Made by a program: the position numbers and the translations under genes | In this document: positions 56,443 through 64,000 of the stretch, in pieces | How the letters are laid out: every line of letters begins with the position of its first letter | Position numbering within the stretch: the first letter of the stretch is position 1 | The notes under the pieces: model-generated | The model's input: only the letters and a program-made list of their open reading frames with translations | Databases searched by the model: none | What the model was told of the DNA's origin: nothing | Assembly (NCBI RefSeq): GCF_006974145.1 | Contig: NZ_CP039456.1 | Coordinates: 4,030,499-4,094,498, forward strand | Reading direction: 5' to 3' | Length of the DNA: 64,000 nt | Origin: Changchengzhania lutea | GTDB taxonomy: Bacteria > Bacteroidota > Bacteroidia > Flavobacteriales > Flavobacteriaceae

Positions 56443-58608
56443 ATGATTCATATTCACGAGAAAACATTACAAGATTTAGAATTCGCGACTGTACTTAAAC
56501 AGGTAAGTGAGCTTTGCATTACACATTTAGGTCATGAGCAGGCATTGCAAATTAGTCCGTTAAAGACTAAAGAATTACTACTTGAGAGTTTAGGATTAAC
56601 TAATGAGTATGTATCGTCATATGATAACGATAACCGCATTCCTAATCATGGGTTTGATGCCATTAGCAAGGAATTACAATTACTGCGCATTGAAAACACC
56701 TATTTAGAGGTTCATGGGTTAAAGAAGATTGTATCTATTTCACTAACGGTAAATACGATTATTACTTACATTAAAAAACTAGAAGAATATTATCCTCAGC
56801 TAAACCAGCACTGTGCGCATATAGAAGTCACTAAGGTTATTATCGAAAAAGTGGATGCTATTGTAGACCGTTTTGGAGATATTAAGGACAATGCTTCCAA
56901 TGTGCTTTATGACCTTCGCCAGACGATAAATAAGATTAAAGGAAAAATAAATCAAAGTTTTACAACAGCTTTAAATACCTATCACAATCTTGATTATTTA
57001 GATGATATTAGGGAGTCCGTAGTAGAAAACAAAAGGGTTTTGGCCGTAAAAGCGATGTATCGTAGAAAGGTAAAAGGTGCCATAATGGGCGGAAGTAAAA
57101 CGGGAAGTATTGTATATATAGAACCTGAAATGACCTTGCAACATTCACGGGAACTCAATAATTTAGAATATGAGGAACATGAGGAGGTTATTCGGATTTT
57201 AAAAGAGGTCACCAATTTTATACGCCCGTACTTACCACTGCTAGAAAATTATCAAGCTTATTTAATGGATATGGATGTGATTTCGGCAAAAGCGAAATAT
57301 GCCAAATCCATGAATGCCATTCTTCCGGAAATATCTGAAGACCGAAGTATGTATTTGCGAGATGCCTACCATCCGCTGCTCTATTTAAACAATTTAGAAA
57401 AGAAAGAAAAAACATTTCCGCAGACCATCGGTCTAAAACAGGATAGTAGAATCATCGTGATTTCTGGTCCCAATGCTGGTGGAAAAAGTATCACACTTAA
57501 AACCATTGGGCTGCTTCAAGTGATGCTACAAAGTGGTTTTTTAATCCCTGTGCATGAGCGTAGCAAGGTATGTTTATTTGATAGAATATTAAGTGATATT
57601 GGTGACAATCAATCCATTGAAAACCATTTGAGCACCTATAGCTACCGTTTAAAACAAATGAATTATTTTCTTAAAAAGTGTAATAAAAACACCCTGTTTT
57701 TAATAGATGAATTCGGTACAGGAAGTGACCCCGAACTTGGTGGTGCTTTAGCGGAAACCTTTTTGGAGGAATTTTATCACCGGGAAGCTTTTGGAATTAT
57801 CACGACGCACTACTCCAATTTAAAAATTTTGGCTAATGAATTGCCATATATGCTCAATGCCAATATGCTTTTTGATGAAAAAACATTAGAGCCGCTTTAT
57901 AAATTAGTCATCGGTCAAGCCGGAAGTAGTTTTACGTTTGAGGTGGCACAAAAAAACGGTATCCCATACAGTTTGATTAATCGCGCAAAAAAGAAGATTG
58001 AGCGCAGTAAAGTGCGTTTTGATGCCACTATTGCCAAACTTCAAAAAGAACGGTCTAAATTAGAAAAAACGGGGCAATCGCTTAAGTTGAACGAAAAGAA
58101 AAAGATAGATGAAGCCGATAAGCTCGAAGAAATTAATGCGAAAATTCAGAAGAAATTAGAAAGCTATCAGGAATTATATGACAGTAACCAGCGCTTGATT
58201 TATTTAGGACAAAAACTCAATGATGTTGCAGAAAAGTATTTTGATAATAAACAGAAACGCGAGCTCATGGCAGAACTTTTCAAAATTGTTCAGATTGAAA
58301 ATTCAAAACGCAAAAAAGTTTCGGTAAAACAGAAAAAGCAGATAAAGGCCAAAGAAACACAGGTTAAGCAAGAAGCTGAAAAGAAAGTGGAAGTTATCCG
58401 ACAAAAGAAAAAGAAAGCTAAAGAAAAAGCGATTGAAGCTCCCAAACCTAAACCCATTTTAAAAATTGGCGACCGTGTTAGAATGCATGATGGTAGAGCT
58501 ATTGGAAGCATAGATACTATTGAAAAAAACAAAGCCATCGTAAATTATGGCATGTTTACAACCAACATCAATTTAGATTTATTAGAACTTGTTGAGCGCA
58601 GAAAATAA
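56443..58608 (+). CDS. MutS2-like DNA-binding ATPase lacking Smr domain
   Basis: MutS-family protein of 721 residues. The core and clamp helices (DLEFATVLKQVSELCITHLG, NNLEYEEHEEVIRILKEVTN) lead to the ATPase: Walker A GPNAGGKSITLKTIG near residues 342-356, NHLSTYSYRLKQM, Walker B TLFLIDEFGTGSDPELGGAL, and ITTHYSNLKILANELPYMLN. After the ATPase comes a long lysine-rich coiled coil (KKKIDEADKLEEINAKIQKK onward) and a KOW-like end IGDRVRMHDGRAIGSIDTIE. MutS2 usually carries a C-terminal Smr nuclease domain; here the protein stops before it. It may still bind branched DNA or stalled ribosomes. Its stop is one base before the next start. Confidence 0.92.
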   Translation: MIHIHEKTLQDLEFATVLKQVSELCITHLGHEQALQISPLKTKELLLESLGLTNEYVSSYDNDNRIPNHGFDAISKELQLLRIENTYLEVHGLKKIVSISLTVNTIITYIKKLEEYYPQLNQHCAHIEVTKVIIEKVDAIVDRFGDIKDNASNVLYDLRQTINKIKGKINQSFTTALNTYHNLDYLDDIRESVVENKRVLAVKAMYRRKVKGAIMGGSKTGSIVYIEPEMTLQHSRELNNLEYEEHEEVIRILKEVTNFIRPYLPLLENYQAYLMDMDVISAKAKYAKSMNAILPEISEDRSMYLRDAYHPLLYLNNLEKKEKTFPQTIGLKQDSRIIVISGPNAGGKSITLKTIGLLQVMLQSGFLIPVHERSKVCLFDRILSDIGDNQSIENHLSTYSYRLKQMNYFLKKCNKNTLFLIDEFGTGSDPELGGALAETFLEEFYHREAFGIITTHYSNLKILANELPYMLNANMLFDEKTLEPLYKLVIGQAGSSFTFEVAQKNGIPYSLINRAKKKIERSKVRFDATIAKLQKERSKLEKTGQSLKLNEKKKIDEADKLEEINAKIQKKLESYQELYDSNQRLIYLGQKLNDVAEKYFDNKQKRELMAELFKIVQIENSKRKKVSVKQKKQIKAKETQVKQEAEKKVEVIRQKKKKAKEKAIEAPKPKPILKIGDRVRMHDGRAIGSIDTIEKNKAIVNYGMFTTNINLDLLELVERRK

Positions 58609-58609
58609 C

Positions 58610-59026
58610 ATGATAGAAATCCCAAAAGACAAAAAATTAATTTTATTTGATGGTGTTTGCAACCTTTGCAATAGCGCTGTTCAATATATTATCAAATATG
58701 ATAAGGCAAATCTCTTTTTATTTGCGCCATTACAAAGTGAGGTAGGCAAAGCGCTTATTGAGGAGCATTATATTGATACCTCAAAAATGGATTCCATACT
58801 CTTATATACACCAGGAAAAGGCATGGATTATAAATCTACTGCCGCTTTAAAAATTGCTCACCACTTAGGGTTTCCACAACATTTAATGAGCATCTTTTTT
58901 ATAATACCACCATTTATTAGGAATTGGGTTTACGATTATATCGCTAAAAACAGATACAAATGGTATGGAAAACAAGAGGCTTGTATGATTCCTACGCCAG
59001 AATTAAAAAGTAAATTTTTAGATTAA
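58610..59026 (+). CDS. DCC-type thiol-disulfide oxidoreductase (DUF393)
   Basis: Protein of 138 residues with a thioredoxin-like fold. The motif ILFDGVCNLCNSAVQYII contains the redox CxxC (C17/C20) of the DCC family. Later KANLFLFAPLQSEVGKALIE, SKMDSILLYTPGKGMDYKST, AALKIAHHLGFPQHLMSIFF and PPFIRNWVYDYIAKNRYKWY are typical. The ATG at 58610 follows the MutS2-like stop after a single base, so the two are translated together. The partner protein is unknown. The stop is convergent with the ATP-grasp gene (2 bases between). Confidence 0.92.
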   Translation: MIEIPKDKKLILFDGVCNLCNSAVQYIIKYDKANLFLFAPLQSEVGKALIEEHYIDTSKMDSILLYTPGKGMDYKSTAALKIAHHLGFPQHLMSIFFIIPPFIRNWVYDYIAKNRYKWYGKQEACMIPTPELKSKFLD

Positions 59027-59028
59027 TT

Positions 59029-60072
59029 TTATAGCGTGGCCAACTGCACGTTTTGTAAATAATCGCCATACATATTTTTATAGTGCACCTTCTTTTCGAT
59101 AGCTTCAATAACCGGGGTGTTAAAATCTGCATCATACATCTGGCTAGATACATTTAATCCGCCAGGACTAAACACATTAATTTCCATAAGCTTGTCACCT
59201 ACGATATCTATACCTACGAGAAACATTCCATCTTGCACTAATTTAGGTCTTACAATGTCTGCAAGCTTCATAATTCTATCGGTCATTTTTACAGCAGCTG
59301 GTTTTCCGCCGGCATGAATATTACTTCTAATATCCCCGGATGCATTCACCCGTTGCATCATCGCATATTTACCATCGGCAGATTCCAAAGGCTTACCGTT
59401 CATAAGGAACAGGCGGGTATCACCCCCTGTGGCTTCTTTCAAATATTCTTGTGCTATCACATAGCCATCCCTAGCAATAGCATCAATGGTTTGTGATAAA
59501 TTATGTTCATTCTTTTTGTCCATCATAAACACATTGGTTCCGCCAGAGCCTTGTAGCGGTTTTAATATCATTTTTTGTTTCTGTTTTTCAAAAAAGCCCC
59601 TGATTTCATCGTGATCTCTGGATATAATTGTTTTTGGCCTCACGATTTCTGGAAAATGCTGAAAGTACATTTTGTTTACTGCACTGGCTAAAGTAGTAGG
59701 ATGATTAATTACAATAACGCCGTTTCGCATGGCTATTTCACCAAATATAGATGCTGCATTATAGGCCCAATCACGTTCATTAATTTCATCCGCGGGATTG
59801 TTTCTCAAAAATAAGACATCTAAATCTTCAGAAGAAATTCTTGAAAATTCTTCTTTTTGAACCGCTTTAAAATAAGTTTCCTGACTTTTGAAATTCCCTT
59901 CCTTTAATGTTTTACATCGTACTGAAAGATGCCCTTTTGAGGCATAGGATAATTCTCCAACACCAATATAATACACATTATGTCCTCTTTTATGGGCTGC
60001 ATACCCCAATCCAGGTGTGGTATAATTTGGCTTTTCAGTTTTATGATCATTTATAATGAAGGCAAGTTTCAT
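59029..60072 (-). CDS. Glutathione-synthetase-like ATP-grasp ligase
   Basis: ATP-dependent carboxylate-amine ligase of 347 residues, similar in layout to GshB. N-terminal substrate domain: MKLAFIINDHKTEKPNYTTP, GLGYAAHKRGHNVYYIGVGE, FLRNNPADEINERDWAYNAA, VIVINHPTTLASAVNKMYFQ. ATP-grasp: QKMILKPLQGSGGTNVFMMD (glycine-rich loop), YVIAQEYLKEATGGDTRLFL, and magnesium-binding LMEINVFSPGGLNVSSQMYD. Residues RSNIHAGG are shared with the partial ligase at the right edge. No GshA is seen. In this setting it more likely joins an amino acid to a different acceptor than glutathione. Last gene of the minus-strand cluster, 71 bases after the DUF1704 gene. Confidence 0.87.
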   Translation of the reverse strand: MKLAFIINDHKTEKPNYTTPGLGYAAHKRGHNVYYIGVGELSYASKGHLSVRCKTLKEGNFKSQETYFKAVQKEEFSRISSEDLDVLFLRNNPADEINERDWAYNAASIFGEIAMRNGVIVINHPTTLASAVNKMYFQHFPEIVRPKTIISRDHDEIRGFFEKQKQKMILKPLQGSGGTNVFMMDKKNEHNLSQTIDAIARDGYVIAQEYLKEATGGDTRLFLMNGKPLESADGKYAMMQRVNASGDIRSNIHAGGKPAAVKMTDRIMKLADIVRPKLVQDGMFLVGIDIVGDKLMEINVFSPGGLNVSSQMYDADFNTPVIEAIEKKVHYKNMYGDYLQNVQLATL

Positions 60073-60143
60073 GATGCGTTTATTTAGTTAATGGATATTC
60101 ATACAAGGTAGAGGTACTCTAATCAAAAAGTGAGCCCTATCGA

Positions 60144-61982
60144 TTAATTTGTTAGCTCTGTTATTTCAATACCTCTCCTTAAGTGCTTTAAACGCTTCTT
60201 AACTTCTTTTCTTTCTAAAAAGCGAGGTAACTCAGGTTGCTTCAGTACGCCTCTATGTAGCAACTCTTCTATTAAATCAATATGGTTTAAATTGAATTTA
60301 CCAGTATATAAATTCTGCAAATTACCGCCCTCTTTTAAATACTTCAACACATCAATTAGTCCAGCAAGATAAACGGCATCCTTTGTTAATCCTCCGCCGC
60401 GGTAAACCCGCATTGAAATATAATAGGATATGCGATCTGAAAACGCATATTTTTTTCTTAATAAATTAAAGGTTTCAATAAAGTCTGCACCATTGGTCAT
60501 TGATTTAACAGCCATAACTCGACCAGCTAATAAACGCAACCTGTTAACGGTAAGCCCGCCAACCAAAAATTCAGCTATTACGGCAAGTCCTTCTTGCAGT
60601 TGATCATAGCCTTCAAAACCTTCATACATTTGACATAAAGGCTGTCTTTTTCCATTGCAATATGTAAGTATATGCGTGCCAACTTCATGCTGAATTAATG
60701 CATCTGCGCGACCTTCATCAAAAGAGATTTCATCATTTATTAACAATTTACTTTTAGACACCATGATGCCAGCAATATCATTTCTTATTTCCAGAGATAA
60801 TTCTATATCAGGAAACTTTTCATTATAATAATGCAATTCTTCCTTAGCAAGTGCTGCGAATTCATGACAATTTAATCGTCTTTTATTTTTAACGTTTTGG
60901 CTTTTTGGATAAGCTTTTAGTATTTTTTTGGCTTCTTTGATGACATTTTTTTTTGAAACCCCATACAAACTCTCACCAACAAATCTGAAATTTTTAGTAC
61001 CACGCTCTTCCAGCATGGTTAATTGTTTTTCAATTTCCAACCGCTTCCCTCTAAGGATATATGCGATGGTAGGATCTTCAATGTCGTCTATGGGTAAATT
61101 ATAGAGTTTACGTTTTTCTAGCTCAGGATCTAAGGCAATCAATCTATATTTAAACGATGGCGTTTCTTTAAAATTATTATCCCTAAACCGCTTCCATTCC
61201 TCGTTACTGTTTACAGGTGTGGCACGTAATAAAAATGACATACCTTCATTAATCTCTGCCAACTCTCTATCTGCTTTCGCCGTCACTTCACTAATATGCG
61301 TCTTACCTAAAATGAGGTAATTATTAAAATGATCTGAATTTTGAATCCGGATAAATTCATAGGCAGCGCGTTTCACCGTTTCTGAAAATACGATATGAAA
61401 CTGTCTAAAAAATAATGAATACAACTCATCCGTTTCCAAATTTTTATAAAGAACAGGAATAGATACGCCAATAACTAAAATTCCCGATTTTTTTGCATCT
61501 TCATCGTTAAGTAACGGAGACAAATTTTTTGGGTGCCTAACCATGCTCGTGCTGATACTAGAAGACAAATTTGGATAAATTTCACTTAAAGACTCAAAGC
61601 CTTCCTGCAAAGCTTTTAAGGTTCCTGGCGCTTTGGCTTTAGGACAACTAATTTTAAACTCTGAAGACTCAAAATCGTTATCTGGCCAAAATTCCAATAT
61701 TAAAAACGTTTCGAACTTTTTTTCAACCAAATGTTTGATGGCCCTTAATAAAGGTGAGATATCAATAGTTTCATCTACTATTATATAAGATGCTTGTGTT
61801 TTTAGAAGCCTAGCAAAATGGACATCTGGCTTTTTATACCTAAAAACACAGATATATGGCAATAACTTGTCTATATGAAGCAAGCCGCCTTTTGGCAATA
61901 TTTGATTTAATGGTAAATGATGGCTAATTCCACCACAAATTTGTTCGATTATTTGATCTTCGATCGTATTTTCTTCCAACAT
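60144..61982 (-). CDS. DUF1704 / TIGR02421 metallopeptidase-like protein (QEGLA motif)
   Basis: Protein of 612 residues in the family often named flavohemoglobin expression-modulating QEGLA motif protein (TIGR02421, DUF1704). The zinc-protease signature HEVGTH is at residues 432-437, and the family motif QEGLA at 463-467 supplies the third ligand (E464). Eukaryotic relatives (MATCAP/TMCP) are tubulin carboxypeptidases, so a carboxypeptidase activity on a C-terminal residue is likely. The N-terminal ~250 residues (LPYICVFRYKKPDVHFARLL, ASYIIVDETIDISPLLRAIK) look like an N-formylglutamate-amidohydrolase-like or binding domain. It begins directly at the end of the amidohydrolase gene (0 bases apart), so both act together. 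Confidence 0.88.
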   Translation of the reverse strand: MLEENTIEDQIIEQICGGISHHLPLNQILPKGGLLHIDKLLPYICVFRYKKPDVHFARLLKTQASYIIVDETIDISPLLRAIKHLVEKKFETFLILEFWPDNDFESSEFKISCPKAKAPGTLKALQEGFESLSEIYPNLSSSISTSMVRHPKNLSPLLNDEDAKKSGILVIGVSIPVLYKNLETDELYSLFFRQFHIVFSETVKRAAYEFIRIQNSDHFNNYLILGKTHISEVTAKADRELAEINEGMSFLLRATPVNSNEEWKRFRDNNFKETPSFKYRLIALDPELEKRKLYNLPIDDIEDPTIAYILRGKRLEIEKQLTMLEERGTKNFRFVGESLYGVSKKNVIKEAKKILKAYPKSQNVKNKRRLNCHEFAALAKEELHYYNEKFPDIELSLEIRNDIAGIMVSKSKLLINDEISFDEGRADALIQHEVGTHILTYCNGKRQPLCQMYEGFEGYDQLQEGLAVIAEFLVGGLTVNRLRLLAGRVMAVKSMTNGADFIETFNLLRKKYAFSDRISYYISMRVYRGGGLTKDAVYLAGLIDVLKYLKEGGNLQNLYTGKFNLNHIDLIEELLHRGVLKQPELPRFLERKEVKKRLKHLRRGIEITELTN

Positions 61983-62813
61983 TTATTCAGAATACATTTT
62001 ATAAAATTTTTGAGCCTGTAACGGAATGTGATTTTTTAAGTCTAGCTCTACAGCTTTAACCACTTCTGGAAACATGATTTGCTCATACTCATCGCAATAT
62101 ATTTTTGCGATTTCAGTAGCCAAAACTAGTATATTTTTGAAATTATTGGTAATAAATCTTAAAAAATAACCATTGCCCTGAAAAGTGTCATTCACTTTTG
62201 ATGTTGACTTTATATTGTTGGGCAAGTTCATTTCGGATAAGCTTTGGCGCCATATTTCAACAGCTTCTCCAAAGCGCGCATTGTCAATATTAGAGGTTCC
62301 TAAATTCCAAGTTGGTACTTCTCGATCCCAACGTTTCCTATTATAGCTATGCATATCAAAAACGGTTACAAAACCAAACTTTTGTTCTAAAGTGCCCATA
62401 AGCGTATCAACGACTTTATAAAAGTTATGATGTTTCTGAAGGCTCTTTTTCTTCATCGACTCTGTAAGTGGCTGTTTCCATAGTTTCTTTCCCCAAGCAT
62501 CTTCGTAAATGGCATCGTCAGGCGCCCGGTTGAGATCATATTCAAAACGAGAATCGCAACCCGCAATAACTATGGGATGGGACTGTACCATGTTTTTAGT
62601 TTCTGGATCTTCCTCGTACCAGCGTTCGTATTCGGTATGTAAACAATTATCCCAAAGCTCTTTTCTAAATTGATGCCCATCGTGAACGGCACCGCAGACA
62701 TACGGTACATATGCATCAATTTTTATAGTGAAGGCATAATCTGAAGACACCGCTTCAAAAATTTCTTCGTTCTTAATTTTATTAATTATCGTGTTTAATG
62801 GTAGTTTTTGCAT
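61983..62813 (-). CDS. N-formylglutamate amidohydrolase-like protein
   Basis: Zinc-dependent amidohydrolase-like protein of 276 residues. Landmarks: YVPYVCGAVHDGHQFRKELW (first metal histidine), HPIVIAGCDSRFEYDLNRAP, KVVDTLMGTLEQKFGFVTVF, FDMHSYNRKRW (second metal/substrate site) and FITNNFKNILVLATEIAKIY. The classical enzyme splits N-formylglutamate in histidine breakdown, but no hut gene is near. Here it lies 3 bases downstream of the sulfurtransferase gene and abuts the DUF1704 gene, so it probably hydrolyses an amide made by the neighbouring ATP-grasp ligases (inference). Confidence 0.85.
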   Translation of the reverse strand: MQKLPLNTIINKIKNEEIFEAVSSDYAFTIKIDAYVPYVCGAVHDGHQFRKELWDNCLHTEYERWYEEDPETKNMVQSHPIVIAGCDSRFEYDLNRAPDDAIYEDAWGKKLWKQPLTESMKKKSLQKHHNFYKVVDTLMGTLEQKFGFVTVFDMHSYNRKRWDREVPTWNLGTSNIDNARFGEAVEIWRQSLSEMNLPNNIKSTSKVNDTFQGNGYFLRFITNNFKNILVLATEIAKIYCDEYEQIMFPEVVKAVELDLKNHIPLQAQKFYKMYSE

Positions 62814-62816
62814 AAT

Positions 62817-63638
62817 TTATTTTTCTACTAAAGTTCCCCATTCTGTCCATGAGCCATCATATACCGACATATTATCGTATCCAGTAATGGTTGCTCCAAG
62901 TGCCAGCACACAAGCGGTAAGCCCTGACCCACAGGAGAAAATAAGGTTATCGTCTTTTTTAGCCACAGCATCAAATGCTTTAACCAATTCTTCCTTTGGT
63001 TTTAAAAGGCCATCATTCAATATGTCTATATAGGGTAAATTCACTGAATTTGGAATGGTTCCCATTCTTAAGCCTTCTCTGGGTTCTGGTGCTTCTGAAT
63101 TAAATCTTGCTTGGGAACGTGCATCTATAATTTTGTGGGTTTCGTTTGCTGAAGCCGCTTTAACATCATTAAAGAATGTCATGTATTCCGGTTGAAGATT
63201 TGCGACAAAATTACCAGCTTCACTTTGATAATTCTGCATCGGTTCAGTAGCGTATTTCGATTTTAACCAAGCTGGGAAACCACCATTTAAAACGGCTACA
63301 TTATTATGACCAAAAGCCTTAAACATCCACCATAGGCGGGCACTAGAATAAATCCCCTTATCATCATAAACCACGATAGGCGTCTCTTTGTTAATTCCTA
63401 AAGTCCTAGCTTCTTTTTGGAACTGTTGTAAAGGAGGAAAAGCACTAGGAAACGGATTTGAAGTATCACTAAATTTCTTCTTAATATCAAAAAAGCGGGC
63501 ATTAGGAATTTGCAATAGTGCGTCGTTGAATTCCTTATTAATGGTTCCATCTAAAATGATAAGATCTTTAGCATACAAATGATTATGAAGCCACGCAACT
63601 GAAACAATAGGTTCATTTAGGAAAATATCAGAATTCAT
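62817..63638 (-). CDS. Sulfurtransferase, mercaptopyruvate type
   Basis: Two-rhodanese-domain protein of 273 residues. The first domain (inactive) has VSVAWLHNHLYAKDLIILDG and GINKETPIVVYDDKGIYSSA, RLWWMFKAFGHNNVAVLNGG, FPAWL. The second has IIDARSQARFNSEAPEPREG, the MGTIPNSVNLPY motif and the active cysteine C236 in CGSGLTA. The CGSG-T loop is that of 3-mercaptopyruvate sulfurtransferases rather than thiosulfate rhodaneses (CRKGV). It moves sulfur from mercaptopyruvate to a thiol. It is 46 bases after the partial ATP-grasp gene and 3 bases before the amidohydrolase gene, so the whole set is one transcript. Confidence 0.92.
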   Translation of the reverse strand: MNSDIFLNEPIVSVAWLHNHLYAKDLIILDGTINKEFNDALLQIPNARFFDIKKKFSDTSNPFPSAFPPLQQFQKEARTLGINKETPIVVYDDKGIYSSARLWWMFKAFGHNNVAVLNGGFPAWLKSKYATEPMQNYQSEAGNFVANLQPEYMTFFNDVKAASANETHKIIDARSQARFNSEAPEPREGLRMGTIPNSVNLPYIDILNDGLLKPKEELVKAFDAVAKKDDNLIFSCGSGLTACVLALGATITGYDNMSVYDGSWTEWGTLVEK

Positions 63639-63684
63639 TAAAAAAGATTTAACTGATTACTGTTACTGAAAACTATTGGCTCAA

Positions 63685-64000
63685 TTACGCATCTTGAACT
63701 GTTTTTCTCAATCTTGTGCGTCTATCAAAAGCCTGTAATTTATCAATCACTTTCATTTCTAAAAAGTCAATTACTTTTTCTTCAATTTTAACTTTAAGTT
63801 TATATACTTTATTGATATAAGTGATGCCGCCTGGGGACATGACATTAACCTCAACTAATTTGCCACCAATAACATCAATGCCTACAAAATAAAGTCCGTC
63901 ATTTACCAGTTTTGGACCGATTTGCTTACAGAGTGCTTTTTCTGTTTTTGTTAATGTGTGTTTTTGCACACTGCCTCCTGCCGACACATTTGATCGGTGA
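63685..64000 (-). CDS. Partial glutathione-synthetase-like ATP-grasp ligase (C-terminus)
   Basis: The right edge of the window cuts this gene; only the last ~104 residues are present. They include RSNVSAGGSVQKHTLTKTEK, GPKLVNDGLYFVGIDVIGGK and the magnesium-binding VEVNVMSPGGITYINKVYKL, then a basic tail. The block RSN-x-x-AGG...LVxDGxxxVGID...ExNxxSPGG is shared with the ligase at 59029, so this is a paralogue. It is the most upstream gene seen of the cluster; its start and any further members lie beyond the window. Confidence 0.88.
   Translation of the reverse strand, partial: HRSNVSAGGSVQKHTLTKTEKALCKQIGPKLVNDGLYFVGIDVIGGKLVEVNVMSPGGITYINKVYKLKVKIEEKVIDFLEMKVIDKLQAFDRRTRLRKTVQDA

Follow-up and report, generated by a model that had tools for sequence, protein, structure and literature searches.

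The window analysed here, 64,000 nucleotides of Changchengzhania lutea (contig NZ_CP039456.1, positions 4,030,499 to 4,094,498), ends in five consecutive minus-strand open reading frames (ORFs) in which a first-pass annotation, made from the sequence alone, had seen a possible undescribed peptide-tag or small-thiol system. We found all five where it had placed them, separated by 71, 0, 3 and 46 bases (Table 1); the last, cut by the window edge, is complete and encodes 346 aa when the genome is read past that edge (L002:8184-9224). Comparison with related loci showed that the recurrent core consists of a GshB-like ATP-grasp ligase, a carboxypeptidase of the MATCAP family and an amidohydrolase of the N-formylglutamate amidohydrolase type (FGase), and that the sulfurtransferase (MST) is a passenger. 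An open-access literature search found no paper describing the operon, although an earlier description is possible.

Table 1. Genes of the operon at the end of the window
Gene	Product	Position	Strand	Assignment
GshB2	Glutathione-synthetase-like ATP-grasp ligase, class 2, 347 aa	59029-60072	-	Pfam GSH-S_ATP; partner of long MATCAP
Class II (long) MATCAP	Degenerate FGase domain (~1-215) and MATCAP carboxypeptidase domain (~251-612)	60144-61982	-	PF08014; HEVGTH, QEGLA
FGase	FGase-type hydrolase, N-formylglutamate amidohydrolase fold, family-invariant polar residues present	61983-62813	-	PF05013
MST	3-mercaptopyruvate-type sulfurtransferase, rhodanese domains, CGSGLTA	62817-63638	-	Pfam rhodanese, two stretches
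GshB1	Glutathione-synthetase-like ATP-grasp ligase, class 1	63685-64000 and beyond	-	Pfam GSH-S_ATP

The core enzymes and their conserved residues

The peptidase had been assigned to DUF1704/TIGR02421. It passed the PF08014 cut-off by a wide margin (334.3 bits against 27, E = 1.1e-99) but fell just short of that of TIGR02421 (337.2 bits against 338.65). Its HEVGTH and QEGLA motifs are both present as first reported; the former starts at residue 432 and, with E464, makes up a metal site that is invariant in our A2 alignment. HExxxH and EG are kept in 128 of the 129 MATCAPs compared below, and the H, E, H and EG glutamate, together with a set of residues R...K-D...Y-L...G-K, also align in human MATCAP/TMCP1 (KIAA0895L, PF08014), which matched the window protein by profile at E = 1.8e-10. 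Structural modelling, proposed in the first-pass annotation, gave an AlphaFold model (pLDDT 92.0) whose residues 251-610 have the fold of human MATCAP (7z5g; Z 24.4, 290 residues, rmsd 3.0). The window protein differs from the human enzyme in its operon with ATP-grasp ligases and in an N-terminal domain that had been overlooked. These first ~215 residues form a separate, degenerate FGase-like domain (hhalign probability 95.6, E = 1.1e-8, 196 columns; model residues 30-215 against FGase 2q7s, Z 13.2), in whose alignment FGase H44 stands opposite a gap, H155 opposite a tryptophan and E234 opposite a serine.

The separate FGase belongs to its family by Pfam match (PF05013, 51 bits against a cut-off of 28.9, E = 2.8e-13) and by fold (2q7s, E = 2.7e-13, TM 0.71), whereas it shares only 15-17% identity with the solved structures 2q7s and 2odf, matches no NCBIfam model and has a MATCAP neighbour. 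H44, D153, H155 and E234 were present in 102/102 FGase proteins. One lineage carries an AstE/AspA-type enzyme in the place of FGase, identified by Pfam in L031 and L035 and by our own profile in the remaining loci; HxxE, H and E are kept in 10/10 of these proteins. Metal roles are assigned to the conserved residues of both families. FGase and MATCAP are fused in a single ORF in L027, L030, L067 and L072, both domains being confirmed by Pfam for L030. The FGase of L039, overlapped by another ORF, was confirmed to be present.

Both ligases are ATP-grasp proteins related to Escherichia coli GshB (PRK05246/TIGR01380), with 31% (GshB1) and 27% (GshB2) identity. Both classes retain, among other residues of the E. 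coli enzyme, K125, K160, R210, R225, R233, N235, D273, E281 and N283, which have assigned roles there. In contrast, D9 is changed to Y or N and T288-C289 to G-G or G-x, and GshB2 carries a WA insertion. Neither ligase reached the TIGR01380 equivalog cut-off of 299.05 (GshB1, 235.1; GshB2, 208.3), and both passed that of the PRK12458 'glutathione synthetase' subfamily; the PRK05246 equivalog cut-off of 272 lies below the score of GshB1 (279.4) and above that of GshB2 (218.3). RimK-type models scored far under their cut-offs. RimK, NAGGN and graspetide operons also place an ATP-grasp amide ligase beside peptidases or deacylases, but their ligases are of another subfamily and, to our knowledge, they include no MATCAP. 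Elsewhere in the C. lutea genome there is a third GSH-S_ATP match (G000:C1:1356998-1357444, E = 3.2e-20, in a 301-aa frame).

Linkage across bacteria

Partner genes were counted as linked when they lay within 3 kb of MATCAP. The 129 MATCAPs examined come from three sets. The 37 genome loci of the window's phylum represent 37 of 38 distinct PF08014 matches, with all 25 from near genomes and 12 of the 13 added by the wider phylum set, G285 being left out; 7 plasmid loci were selected from 127 matching records in a spread list; and 80 contig loci hold the remaining 85. These contigs are the top 80 matches, out of at least 576, to a single class II sequence, a non-random set with many contigs from metagenome-assembled genomes (MAGs). 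A GshB-like ligase lay near MATCAP in 34/37 genome, 5/7 plasmid and 83/85 contig cases, both contig misses being at contig ends, and it was codirectional with MATCAP in 34/34, 5/5 and 81/83 of them, respectively. Ligase and hydrolase occurred together in 33/37 genome loci (22 with a separate FGase, 3 with a fused FGase and 8 with an AstE/AspA-type enzyme) and in 5/7 plasmid loci, one of them fused. Among the 85 contig MATCAPs, a hydrolase was near 75, and both partners near 73; the ten without a hydrolase comprise four at contig ends, three tandem-array copies (L145, L152, L157), L118, L119 and L165. Median gaps were 12 bases between MATCAP and GshB and -7 between FGase and MATCAP, with mechanical ORF starts exaggerating overlaps.

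These loci carry 12 phylum labels, many of which rest on single MAG contigs: Bacteroidota, Balneolota, Calditrichota, Pseudomonadota, Planctomycetota, Verrucomicrobiota, Kiritimatiellota, Acidobacteriota, Myxococcota, Gemmatimonadota, Campylobacterota and Actinomycetota. Bacteroidota, Pseudomonadota and Planctomycetota, at the least, also occur in records without a MAG mark. Only in the sole Myxococcota and Actinomycetota loci (L111, L150) is the ligase on the other strand. Tandem expansions, with two to three ligases and two to three MATCAPs in a row, were seen in L145 and L157 (Planctomycetota) and in L152 (Verrucomicrobiota).

Conservation of the neighbourhood past close relatives had been set beforehand as a test, and it proved wide, extending to plasmid and contig loci of many phyla. 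Since the ligase-plus-peptidase core recurs in such different bacteria, it looks like one real system. The first-pass annotation had named constant company of two ATP-grasp paralogues and FGase with TIGR02421 proteins as support for one system: a ligase is indeed near-constant, but a single one stands beside most MATCAPs shown, and the window is a combination of two classes. Its more general proposal, that amide-making and amide-breaking enzymes act as one unit, is well supported by the wide linkage, the FGase-MATCAP fusions and the conserved catalytic residues. The degenerate FGase domain of the long MATCAP and the pairing of ligase with peptidase classes, described below, also speak for a single system.

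The sulfurtransferase fared differently. Although it has the CGSGLTA motif, it scored 205.2 bits against PRK11493, under the cut-off of 250, and it accompanies 7/37 genome, 0/7 plasmid and 0/85 contig MATCAPs, all seven in the window's own family. We therefore rejected MST as a core part. Clustering of unassigned neighbours revealed no further recurrent partner among the 40 largest groups, which were either confined to related genera or scattered in position and strand.

Matched enzyme classes and a probable hybrid locus

Two classes of each enzyme separated in the trees, which were quick builds with unsure positions for the long branches of the E. coli row, of L030 and of the solitary MATCAPs. 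GshB1 (19 rows) and GshB2 (99 rows) each fall together on their own side of a branch (98 and 99 support), both distant from E. coli GshB, whose own branch length is 1.83. On the peptidase side, 16 short and 4 fused MATCAPs join (class I, support 94), and 96 long ones form one side of a branch (class II, support 90). The ligase clades match the MATCAP classes, which indicates matched inheritance. Among the 20 class I loci, GshB1 is in the tree for 17; L041 and L045 are without a ligase, and the cut ligase gene of L085 was left out. L045 has also lost FGase, and, in keeping with a single system, its metal motif is broken (HEIGVN). Three solitary MATCAP relatives of ~425-445 aa (L065, L066, L070) form a branch of their own (support 99), the one from Pseudoalteromonas being beside a redoxin gene.

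The window and G172 (L073) have both ligase classes. Relatives with similar flanks (aroC, SDF, DCC1-like), such as L037, L040, L043 and L046, have the order GshB1-(MST)-FGase-short MATCAP, whereas the window has GshB1-MST-FGase-long MATCAP-GshB2, and L073 the same without MST. L029 consists of FGase-long MATCAP-GshB2, and L028 of long MATCAP-GshB2, its genome (G012) keeping a class I locus elsewhere (L044). The window hence looks like a hybrid, with a class II MATCAP-GshB2 pair at the position of its relatives' class I short MATCAP. Gene order and trees together suggest that long MATCAP and GshB2 entered a class I locus (GshB1, MST, FGase) as a pair, replacing the short MATCAP.

Upstream of the operon, the next gene is that of an SDF-type transporter, on the same strand and 98 bases off; a chorismate-synthase-like gene follows past it and a 255-aa ORF. 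Downstream, on the opposite strand, lies a DCC1-like thiol-disulfide oxidoreductase gene (58589-59026), a frequent flank in the window's family. Promoter and terminator scans did no better than on shuffled sequence, and the Bacteroidota-type promoter pattern gave 2 matches (0.48 expected by chance on average), neither of them on the strand of the operon. Three loci hold a small acidic ORF (108-111 aa) between GshB1 and FGase (L043:8357-8692, L075:5612-5938, L084:8107-8436), the L043 copy having no Pfam match.

Possible functions of the system

GshB-type ligases add a residue at a carboxylate, and relatives of MATCAP, FGase and AstE cleave N-acyl amino acids or take off terminal residues, those of FGase and AstE/AspA acting on N-acyl-glutamate or -aspartate. 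As the best reading, which we consider an evenly balanced proposition, the genes encode a cytoplasmic ligase/peptidase system in which the C-terminal end of an acidic peptide-like compound gains residues through the ligases and loses them through two metallo-hydrolases. With ATP, the GshB-like ligases would activate a small acidic peptide-like acceptor at its C-terminal carboxylate and then add an amino acid. The MATCAP domain, as a metallo-carboxypeptidase, would take off one C-terminal residue, and the FGase-type enzyme (AstE/AspA-type in one lineage) would hydrolyse the next amide bond, that of an acidic amino acid. The degenerate domain at the start of the long MATCAP is probably a docking site for the active FGase, on the model of the fused proteins, which might let a single complex make both cuts.

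Several observations weigh against this reading. Substrate, product and reactions of the bacterial members are putative, and the acidic substrate is a guess from activities of FGase and AstE/AspA relatives. GshB1 passes an equivalog cut-off for glutathione synthetase, and the trees contain the unsure placements given above. The distribution of MATCAP is patchy, as PF08014 was found in 21/60 near genomes, 15/296 genomes of the phylum (the window's own genome being in both sets) and 0/14 control genomes. The contig loci, as best matches to a class II sequence, say little on class I or solitary MATCAPs. Neither ligase nor FGase/AstE lies near 5/129 MATCAPs (L041, L045, L065, L066, L070), so some MATCAP-family proteins stand alone, and L041 has lost its neighbours with its metal motif intact. 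Finally, four class II loci off contig ends (L028, L118, L119, L165) are without FGase or AstE, which means that the second hydrolase is not always beside the MATCAP-ligase pair; by Pfam, a glutamine cyclotransferase gene follows in L118, ApbE and a BNR-repeat protein precede in L119, and two ORFs of L165 are unmatched.

TTL/TTLL ligases and MATCAP/CCP peptidases act in a C-terminal cycle on tubulin. By analogy, the bacterial ligases could add a tyrosine- or glutamate-like residue to the C-terminus of a protein, and MATCAP and FGase remove it, an alternative that we regard as unlikely but credible. The peptidase is homologous to human MATCAP/TMCP1, which takes Tyr and then Glu off alpha-tubulin (PMC10499314); in chemical terms, an ATP-grasp ligase does the opposite of that cut; and a weaker resemblance to metallo-carboxypeptidases is seen in both the FGase model and the degenerate FGase domain. 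However, neighbour clustering gave no recurrent candidate substrate protein beside the operon, and GshB relatives mostly use small molecules. As the substrate, we lean towards a small peptide over a protein tail. More speculative, and improbable in its full extent, is a widespread bacterial writer/eraser cycle for the C-terminal amino acid of a protein or signal peptide, which GshB-like ligases would write and MATCAP with FGase/AstE would erase; the MATCAP arm of the eukaryotic tubulin code would then have its bacterial origin in this cycle.

We hold it decidedly doubtful that the operon serves glutathione or close-analogue metabolism, with GshB1 or GshB2 a true glutathione synthetase and the hydrolases recycling its product. 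Because both ligases pass the PRK12458 cut-off, and GshB1 also that of PRK05246, a role with a thiol peptide is conceivable, and the functional arginines of E. coli GshB are retained. Nevertheless, both classes are far from E. coli GshB in the tree, and profile searches of the window genome for GCS2 (PF04107) and Glu_cys_ligase (PF04262) found neither, their controls being matched. The first-pass annotation had named a gshA partner elsewhere in the genome as evidence against a dedicated system, and these searches gave no such match. Of 34 MATCAP genomes, 10 have GCS2 and none Glu_cys_ligase. Ordinary glutathione synthesis is therefore unlikely, and we rejected it as the main explanation. A search for PF08886 gave no match in the window genome, nor in the control genomes. 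The genome does have a BshC family match, which may point to bacillithiol instead; the glutathione-like thiol product suggested earlier is thus not favoured.

Peptide scavenging, in which MATCAP and FGase would degrade imported peptides or N-acyl amino acids and the ligase re-use the pieces, seems quite improbable. The SDF transporter gene upstream in the window, shown in 14/20 class I loci, fits such a role, but among the neighbours shown class II loci are without SDF save for the hybrids and L029/L151, and the most constant partner of MATCAP is an ATP-consuming ligase. Carrier-type biosynthesis, with the ligase attaching an amino acid to a carrier or a protecting group from which the hydrolases free the product, follows the LysW-like logic of ATP-grasp enzymes combined with amide hydrolases, yet it is highly improbable, since no widely recurrent small carrier gene was found among ORFs of at least 80 aa, the small ORF being limited to three loci.

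Anti-phage defence was rejected, with 0 PADLOC matches for 5/5 proteins at E 0.01, as was a phage-borne system, none of the 84 stretches that matched the pattern in a viral contig scan being confirmed. Separately, an unverified record of Pseudomonas phage Y1 (L168) holds a MATCAP relative (E = 2e-14), which neither a ligase nor FGase accompanies in the 11 kb that were read; contamination is possible.

Work in human cells established MATCAP as a tubulin detyrosinase, and the name of its bacterial relatives is silent on chemistry. In records of many phyla, the loci compared here supply bacterial MATCAP with a ligase that is nearly always its neighbour, with a second hydrolase and with fused versions, and its function becomes testable via a three-gene operon. 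It is also suggested that many genes annotated 'glutathione synthetase' produce something else.

Published tables on related genes in two species add to the evidence for one system, with ligase and peptidase genes strongly induced together in one and present or absent together in the other. In Photobacterium damselae, A0J47_RS17020 ('Glutathione synthase GshB') and A0J47_RS17025 ('QEGLA') were up 38.42-fold and 27.51-fold, respectively, at 1% versus 3% NaCl (PMC10308900). Their locus tags, together with Photobacterium sp. GJ3, where GshB precedes an FGase-MATCAP fusion (L067), suggest that the two genes are adjacent. As this reported rise is at low and not at high salt, an osmoprotectant dipeptide of the NAGGN kind is not favoured. 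In Vibrio vulnificus, a list of genes specific to clade 2 includes both VV2_1203 (COG3930) and VV2_1204 (glutathione synthetase) (PMC3091676), and of two oyster strains compared, one is reported to lack both genes and the other to have both (PMC6667273).

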